IMG/VR virus record: IMGVR_UViG_3300032291_001261
Span: 1-25,704 of that record
Origin: a virus
Direction: 5' to 3' (one strand)
DNA: 25,704 nt
Shown: one piece after another, positions 12,443 through 25,704 of the stretch
Layout of the letters: each line of letters begins with the position of its first letter
Numbering within the stretch: the first letter of the stretch is position 1
The notes under the pieces: model-generated
Told to the model about the DNA's origin: nothing
What the model saw: the letters and a program-made list of their open reading frames with translations, nothing else
Database searches by the model: none
Made by a program: the position numbers and the translations under genes

Positions 12443-12868
12443 ATGAGAATAGCGATTATAGTACTTAGTTTATTTTCAGTGTCATTTGCCATGGCATATT
12501 TTTCTGTACTCAAAAGGCTTGAGGTAATTACCAAGGCATTTGCACAGTTAGTTGTTCTTAACTCTACTATTCAAGAAGCATTTGAAGCAAACATTCAGTC
12601 TCCAGTAAGCAAAGAAGATCAAGACATACATAAAGAAAACTTTATTAAGTTTCTTTCTGATTCTCGTGATTGGGCATTTGAGTATATTGAAGATGTGCAA
12701 ACACAATTAGAGACTTTTGTTAGAGATATTGAACCAGAGATTATGTACTTTGATGAGTATGGACTTGTTGGAGATGCTTATCCACACTACCACTCAATGA
12801 AAAAAATATCTGCAGCGTATAAAGATTTAAAGAAGTTGCTTCCAGAGGAAGTCGATGATAGACGCTAG
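12443..12868 (+). CDS. Membrane-anchored hypothetical protein
   Basis: 141 residues, ribosome site AAAGGAA. One N-terminal membrane segment (about 3-21; it could be a signal peptide), then a long helical region (QLVVLNSTIQEAFEA, WAFEYIEDVQTQLETFVRDI) and a Lys/Glu-rich end. No family recognised. A spanin-like or lysis-regulator role would fit size and topology but is a guess. Confidence 0.6.
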   Translation: MRIAIIVLSLFSVSFAMAYFSVLKRLEVITKAFAQLVVLNSTIQEAFEANIQSPVSKEDQDIHKENFIKFLSDSRDWAFEYIEDVQTQLETFVRDIEPEIMYFDEYGLVGDAYPHYHSMKKISAAYKDLKKLLPEEVDDRR

Positions 12869-20177: not shown

Positions 20178-20249
20178 CATCCCTGGCAGGGATCGAACCT
20201 GCGACCTACACCTTAGAAGGGTGTCACTCTTCCGCTGAGTTACAGAGAT
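20178..20249 (-). tRNA. tRNA-Arg (anticodon TCT)
   Basis: 72 nt. Acceptor ATCTCTG/CAGGGAT (one T-G pair), anticodon stem ACACC/GGTGT with loop CTTCTAA (anticodon TCT, codon AGA), T-arm GCAGG-TTCGATC-CCTGC, discriminator G, no encoded CCA. AGA is a common Arg codon in this AT-rich phage. Its 5' ten bases overlap the end of the endonuclease VII gene. Confidence 0.92.
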
Positions 20250-20596
20250 AAATATTTAATTGCTCTTTGAAGTCTTTCAATGTTATCTTGAAAAACACCA
20301 AGTCCACGGTTACAGTTGTGACAAATATGTCCCCTAAACCTATCTGTATCATGATCATGATCAACTACCCAAATACTAGCATTTCCTCCAGTACCCTTTA
20401 ATTCATCTTCATTCTTTAAACATATTGGGCAAAGATAATCATTAACAGGATAACCAAACTCTTTTTTTAATTCTTCTCTACGCTTTGCTAATTTTTTTGC
20501 ACACTGCTTACACTCAGGTCTTAAATATTTACCACCAGAAGATGGTGAAAACTCTGAGTTGTTTAAATCAAGTTTACACTTGCTGCATGTTTTCAT
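20240..20596 (-). CDS. Endonuclease VII-like HNH (homing-type) nuclease
   Basis: 118 residues. Seen: two zinc-binding Cys pairs (CSKCK and CPIC, with CKQC) and the HNH core VVDHDHDTDRFRGHICHNCN then RGLGVFQDN, the T4 gp49-like recombination endonuclease VII signature. Known: enzymes of this family resolve branched DNA or act as homing nucleases. The ATG sits 2 nt after the tRNA-Gly 3' end with no ribosome site, and the TAA stop is inside tRNA-Arg (bases 8-10 of that tRNA). Inferred: a mobile gene inserted into a tRNA array. Confidence 0.9.
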   Translation of the reverse strand: MKTCSKCKLDLNNSEFSPSSGGKYLRPECKQCAKKLAKRREELKKEFGYPVNDYLCPICLKNEDELKGTGGNASIWVVDHDHDTDRFRGHICHNCNRGLGVFQDNIERLQRAIKYLSL

Positions 20597-20598
20597 TG

Positions 20599-20669
20599 AG
20601 GAGATAGCGAGAATCGAACTCGCACATTAACCTTGGCAAGGTTACGCACTACCACTATGCAATATCTCC
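20599..20669 (-). tRNA. tRNA-Gly (anticodon GCC)
   Basis: 71 nt. Acceptor GGAGATA/TATCTCC, anticodon stem TAACC/GGTTA with loop TTGCCAA (anticodon GCC, codons GGC/GGT), T-arm GCGAG-TTCGATT-CTCGC, discriminator T, no encoded CCA. The endonuclease VII ATG follows 2 bases after it. Confidence 0.92.
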
Positions 20670-20672
20670 GTG

Positions 20673-20745
20673 CTGGTCTGGTAGGACTCGAACCTACGAC
20701 TTGGAAATTAACAGTTTCCCACTCTGCCAACTGAGTTACAGACCA
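20673..20745 (-). tRNA. tRNA-Asn (anticodon GTT)
   Basis: 73 nt. Acceptor TGGTCTG/CAGACCA, anticodon stem GGAAA/TTTCC with loop CTGTTAA (anticodon GTT), T-arm GTAGG-TTCGAGT-CCTAC, discriminator G, no encoded CCA. Confidence 0.93.
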
Positions 20746-20749
20746 ATTG

Positions 20750-20823
20750 TAGGGCAACTAGGACTTGAACCTAGGATAGCCGAATTATGAGTTCGGTGCC
20801 TTAACCAACTTGGCTATTGCCCC
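20750..20823 (-). tRNA. tRNA with CAT anticodon (Met, or Ile if lysidine-modified)
   Basis: 74 nt. Acceptor GGGGCAA/TTGCCCT (first pair G-T), anticodon stem CCGAA/TTCGG with loop CTCATAA (anticodon CAT), T-arm CTAGG-TTCAAGT-CCTAG, discriminator A. Elongator Met is the default reading; CAT also occurs in tRNA-Ile2, and the sequence alone does not settle it. Confidence 0.88.
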
Positions 20824-25432: not shown

Positions 25433-25621
25433 TCATACATAATCTGGATGGTCTAATGGAGTAGGTGCTGTTATTAAACACTTACACTCAACACACTGAG
25501 CATCATCTAATAGATACCCTGAAATTTCATATGTATCTGGATCAAATTGAACTGTTAGCCTTAATAATGTAGAGCCACAACAAGGACAAGCAGGTGTTGG
25601 AATACCCCTTAGATTTACCAT
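25433..25621 (-). CDS. Zinc-ribbon protein, paralogue of the gene at 12855
   Basis: 62 residues: MVNLRGIPTPACPCCGSTLL, VQFDPDTYEISGYLLDDA, CVECKC and TAPTPLDHPDYV. Two Cys pairs form the ribbon, and the RGIPT start and TAPTPLDHP end match the rightward gene at 12855-13064. Leaderless start from a promoter that carries a DnaA box in its spacer. As the gene nearest the DnaA-box cluster it may be part of an early or replication control circuit. Inference. Confidence 0.75.
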   Translation of the reverse strand: MVNLRGIPTPACPCCGSTLLRLTVQFDPDTYEISGYLLDDAQCVECKCLITAPTPLDHPDYV

Positions 25622-25627
25622 ATATAC

Positions 25628-25656
25628 AGAATATCAGATACTTATCCACATGTCAA
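25628..25656 (-). promoter_or_regulatory. Leaderless promoter of the zinc-ribbon gene
   Basis: TTGACA (25651-25656), 17 bp, TGA-TATTCT (-10 at 25628-25633), then 6 nt and ATG at 25621. The DnaA box at 25642-25650 occupies most of the spacer. Confidence 0.8.
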
Positions 25657-25695
25657 TAGCCTAAAAAGAGATAGTTATCCACACCTTTATCCACA
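25642..25695 (+). other. Cluster of three perfect DnaA boxes, possible replication origin
   Basis: TTATCCACA occurs three times in the same orientation at 25642-25650, 25675-25683 and 25687-25695 (33 and 12 bp apart). It matches the DnaA consensus TTATNCACA exactly. The one other copy in the window (15538-15546, leftward) is inside a gene and isolated. Host DnaA binding here could open a phage origin or control the promoter at 25628-25656. The cluster may continue past the window edge. Confidence 0.7.
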
Positions 25696-25704
25696 ATATG
25701 AGAC

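Follow-up and report, generated by a model that had tools for sequence, protein, structure and literature searches.

The three DnaA boxes at the right end of the window (the whole linear viral record of 25,704 bases, whose right edge is the contig end) are most likely the outer portion of a large tailed actinophage's replication origin, which is oriC-like and would be opened by host DnaA. Judged by sequence, these viruses probably borrow the DnaA protein of their hosts to start copying their DNA. Loading of host DnaA at a phage origin had been put forward in the original prediction and is well supported by comparison: at least 120 viral contigs share the box array, a DnaA-trio-like element adjoins it, the element occurs once per genome, and no phage DnaA was found.

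All three boxes are perfect copies of TTATCCACA on the + strand. Box 1 lies at 25642..25650, box 2 at 25675..25683 (33 bp from box 1) and box 3 at 25687..25695 (12 bp from box 2), start-to-start spacings that approximate three and one helical turns. The claim that three perfect boxes in a single orientation lie far above chance was confirmed, as none of 400 first-order Markov shuffles gave even two same-strand copies of TTATCCACA within 60 bp and three boxes in 46 bp have a Poisson expectation of ~2e-8. Across the whole window ~0.37 perfect copies are expected, and two additional copies are present elsewhere, at 12778 (+) and 15538 (-). The final bases of the contig, ATATGAGAC (25696..25704, +), have the same letters in two relatives, L005 and L070. 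Because the record stops at 25704, inside the array, the element is truncated in the window, and its trio region is unreadable there since the contig ends before the trios.

Relatives were gathered with the zinc-ribbon protein encoded beside the array (64 viral loci with homologues), the SSB protein (80 loci retained) and the sequence of the box pair (23 stretches). L005 (contig G003) shares ~80–91 per cent identity with the window across most of the window's right two thirds. As the original prediction had proposed, extension to the right by way of relatives revealed that the boxes continue next to an AT-rich, DnaA-trio-like element: in L005 and L070, sequence comparison shows that the window-ending TTATCCACAATATGAGAC continues as AAG-TTATCCACA-TG-TTATCCACA, adding two more boxes, and is followed by an AT-rich stretch with TTACTGATTATAT, then GTGGAGGAAAATGGAGGGAAATGGGG-type (GTGGAG) repeats and then CGTAAT, all outside the window. 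From these relatives we infer an array of about five boxes, of which the window holds the first three.

A scan for a box pair followed after 5–9 bp by TTACTGAT matched at least 120 viral contigs, and the element lies in the interior of many independent contigs, the longest about 119 kb. Its parts are, in order, a helically phased box array of one orientation, a spacer of ~5 bp, a trio-like run, 10-bp GTGGAG repeats and CGTAAT, and the core was found exactly once per genome in all 14 core-bearing relatives that were searched whole. Among the matches listed, 105 distinct elements were analysed; these contain 84 additional upstream boxes compared to 0.07 expected, at offsets that are multiples of ~11 bp (vector length R 0.85 at period 11), and no opposite-strand boxes from -150 to +120. 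The same scan of a bacterial and archaeal collection (84,980 genomes) returned one match, L209 (CANGYR010000020.1), a MAG contig of 22.9 kb recorded under Chitinophagaceae. Since 65 per cent of its fetched stretch aligns to these phages, L209 is probably a misbinned phage contig, and with this as the only bacterial-collection match we rejected the idea that the element is a copy of a bacterial oriC, host DNA or a prophage. DNA comparison with isolated phages gave no relatives or short box matches only, and comparison with plasmids gave weak matches only.

The sequence that follows the array resembles the basal unwinding system (BUS) of bacterial oriC, in which one or two tandem DnaA boxes with few mismatches are separated by a spacer of 0–16 bp from the first of at least three consecutive trinucleotides with a conserved middle A, (.A.){3,}, consensus 3'-GAT-5' (PMC8287927). 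On the TTATCCACA-bearing strand such DnaA-trios read as NTN (NAN on the other strand). Perfect tandem boxes are present in the window and its relatives, and in 25 distinct elements from relatives a gap of 2–5 bp separates the last box from 4–8 NTN trinucleotides in a row (such as ATG TTA CTG ATT ATA TTA TTA), parts that lie past the contig end in the window. The NTN run had a shuffle P-value below 0.05 in 22 of these 25. As TTACTGAT had been used to select the elements, the trio test was limited to the bases after it; in the trios beyond, the middle T is kept at 94, 83 and 71 per cent (105 distinct elements). The bases flanking it vary more at most positions, with the exception of the fourth selected trio, whose first base is 98 per cent T. 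The mean trio run beyond TTACTGAT was 2.3 in the trio frame; the other two frames gave 0.55 and 0.83. These statistics retain some bias from AT-richness, in that NTN runs are easier to obtain in AT-rich DNA. Furthermore, in four relatives the trio stretch ranks among the least stable 2–9 per cent of 25-mers within 1.4 kb. The element thus matches the bacterial unwinding system, and DnaA-dependent opening is predicted.

The gene content of the relatives bears on which proteins would act at such an origin. WhiB, an actinobacterial family, is encoded in 21 of 22 relatives, which points to actinobacterial hosts, and the SSB protein finds its best matches among isolated phages in those infecting Propionibacterium and Mycobacterium. 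A DnaB-type helicase is present in 11 of 22 relatives, including most contigs above 80 kb, and in the relative G006 a DnaG-like primase gene lies beside the DnaB-type helicase gene. DnaA domains (PF08299, PF00308) were found in none of 22 and none of 24 relatives and a Rep_3 initiator (PF01051) in none of 24, with controls matched (for Rep_3, in two genomes), absences that are suggestive only because many of the records are fragments. Rfam identified no structured RNA at the array site; its matches were tRNAs elsewhere, and the window carries four tRNA genes at 20178-20823 (- strand).

We infer from these features that host DnaA binds here, that the DNA melts here and that replication starts here. 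Briefly, host DnaA would bind the high-affinity boxes, which form an array in helical phase and one orientation, extend from the last tandem pair across the short spacer onto the trio run, and there melt the AT-rich DNA. The phage DnaB-family helicase and DnaG-like primase would then be loaded on the opened region, perhaps helped by a factor that recognizes the 10-bp GTGGAG repeats just past the trios. Cumulative GC skew, proposed as a check on the origin, lent no support: there is no minimum at the array, and the skew follows gene direction. The genes flanking the array are co-directional on both sides, so the skew test is of no help in placing an origin; a divergent gene layout as a sign of an origin was rejected for the same co-directionality. 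For the further suggestion that the phage cycle is tied to the host cell cycle we found no evidence.

On the far side of the trios, 97 of 104 elements among the matches listed have at least two copies of RTGGRG, mostly at 10-bp spacing, and CGTAAT is present in 102 of these 104. On the opposite strand the GTGGAG repeats contain TCCAC; candidate roles are weak DnaA sites in inverted orientation and binding sites of a phage protein. These repeats also raise the foremost alternative, an iteron-type origin, like those of P1, F and RK2, at which most of the opening is done by a phage initiator acting on the 10-bp GTGGAG repeats and box-bound host DnaA has only an auxiliary part. The combination of short direct repeats with DnaA boxes is that of an iteron origin, for which reviewed plasmid precedents exist (PMC4980987), and the recurrence and period of the repeats fit it. 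So does G006 (L057), in which the GTGGAG repeats, a trio-like run and CGTAAT are kept despite the loss of strong boxes, beside a single two-mismatch box, TTGTTCACA, a case that also counts against the reading preferred here. Strong DnaA boxes are therefore not always needed, or another protein replaces them; in G006 either host DnaA tolerates TTGTTCACA or another protein does the job. Against an iteron-type origin stand the Rep_3 result above, the ten neighbouring genes scanned, among which none was recognized as initiator-like, and the trio pattern and box phasing, which are those of a DnaA-led origin. Overall, we consider it improbable that a phage initiator leads the opening.

At the left of the array lies the zinc-ribbon gene (25433..25621, -; 62 aa, CPCCG...CVEC), whose product matched no Pfam family. 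A predicted sigma-70-like promoter, TTGACA-17-TATTCT (25628..25656, -), has a 17-nt spacer and an extended TG, agrees with the sigma-70 consensus at 10 of 12 positions and points into this open reading frame. Box 1 sits within the promoter spacer, in agreement with the original prediction. Most distinct relatives in which the gene adjoins the array keep the promoter and keep a box in the spacer that separates TTGACA from a -10-like TATNNT. L004 and L016, with the gene ~600 bp from the array, still have a box in the promoter spacer, and their -35 element reads TTGACC; in L012 and L057 (G006) the promoter is kept and the box is lost. Joint conservation of box and promoter fits repression of the zinc-ribbon gene by DnaA, and because box 1 overlaps the promoter, DnaA occupancy of this box would also turn the gene down. 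The proposed repression is plausible, with the spacer box kept in most relatives with the adjoining gene.

The placement of box 1 in a conserved promoter spacer would also suit a second alternative, in which the array is no origin at all and instead titrates host DnaA, which would block initiation by the host, or governs early promoters. Isolated perfect boxes are likewise enriched in G001, G003, G004 and G011 (5–6 compared to ~1 expected). However, titration needs no trio run at a fixed distance, conserved TTACTGAT, low-stability element, GTGGAG repeats or single copy, and regulation of the zinc-ribbon gene does not account for an array that persists with this gene ~600 bp off or not adjacent; we regard a purely regulatory or titrating role as quite unlikely. 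A chance cluster or an assembly artefact, which the position at the very end of the contig might suggest, is refuted by the relatives, given the Poisson expectation above and the presence of the array inside many independent contigs, and can be given virtually no credence.

Several further patterns were observed in these and other phages. Palindromes resembling CRP/GlxR sites, TGTGN8CACA (mostly TGTGAN6TCACA), are enriched in G003 (L199:9746-17636; 10 observed, 0.8 expected), G004, G001, G011 and G014; they mostly cluster in one part of the genome, in some cases at most 80 bp from an isolated DnaA box, and a search of 19 relatives for Crp-type regulator genes (PF13545) gave none. Two large WhiB-bearing contigs of another phage group carry 12–15 perfect DnaA boxes in ~500 bp on both strands (L155:1814-2340 and L157:4627-5111). 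At other phage loci (L045-L054 and L094-L104), box pairs 11–12 bp apart are followed by different sequence, and some boxes are opposed.

Well-studied phages with their own helicase mostly bring their own replication start too. In the present case, an entire group of phages appears to have the bacterial unwinding module in its genomes, DnaA-trios included. The module is known from bacteria; its service as a phage origin appears to be new, as we found no tailed phage or phage origin with DnaA-trios in the literature covered, a coverage that is incomplete and leaves most subscription papers outside. If the reading of the array as a DnaA-opened origin is correct, host DnaA is a required host factor for these phages, more than 100 natural mini-origin variants are at hand for testing which bases DnaA needs, and uncultured actinophages gain a ready start-site marker. 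It also predicts that phage and chromosome compete for DnaA. More tentatively, and with distinctly less confidence than we place in the origin itself, widespread large actinophages that have no initiator of their own may use a complete chromosome-type DnaA module, in which the GTGGAG repeats load the phage helicase and the same boxes shut off an early gene once occupied by DnaA.

Three known systems allow comparison. Streptomyces phage Kenrey (OQ995430), also a large actinophage, has two TTATCCACA boxes 12 bp apart on the same strand in an intergenic position; unlike the element described here, the Kenrey pair is followed by no NTN trio run and no GTGGAG repeats and carries no origin annotation. 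The pair belongs to a set of three perfect TTATCCACA boxes (L208:2748-3024) in a 1.8-kb stretch of Kenrey without annotated genes. Phage P1 uses its DnaA-box iteron origin for plasmid maintenance. Plasmid origins including that of P1 hold DnaA boxes, and P1 and the iteron plasmids (F, RK2 and pSC101) share with these phages a mobile-replicon origin in which host DnaA boxes lie beside short direct repeats (PMC4980987); here, in contrast, no Rep_3 initiator was found, the boxes form an array with a trio run, and the phages are large and have their own helicase. The likeness to the bacterial oriC unwinding system (Bacillus subtilis boxes 6/7 and relatives) extends to tandem same-strand boxes, a short spacer, three or more trinucleotides whose middle base is conserved and an AT-rich stretch of low stability (PMC8287927). 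It differs in that here the element, known from sequence alone, belongs to phage genomes in which no phage DnaA gene was found, conserved 10-bp GTGGAG repeats follow the trios, and the large relatives encode helicase and primase themselves.
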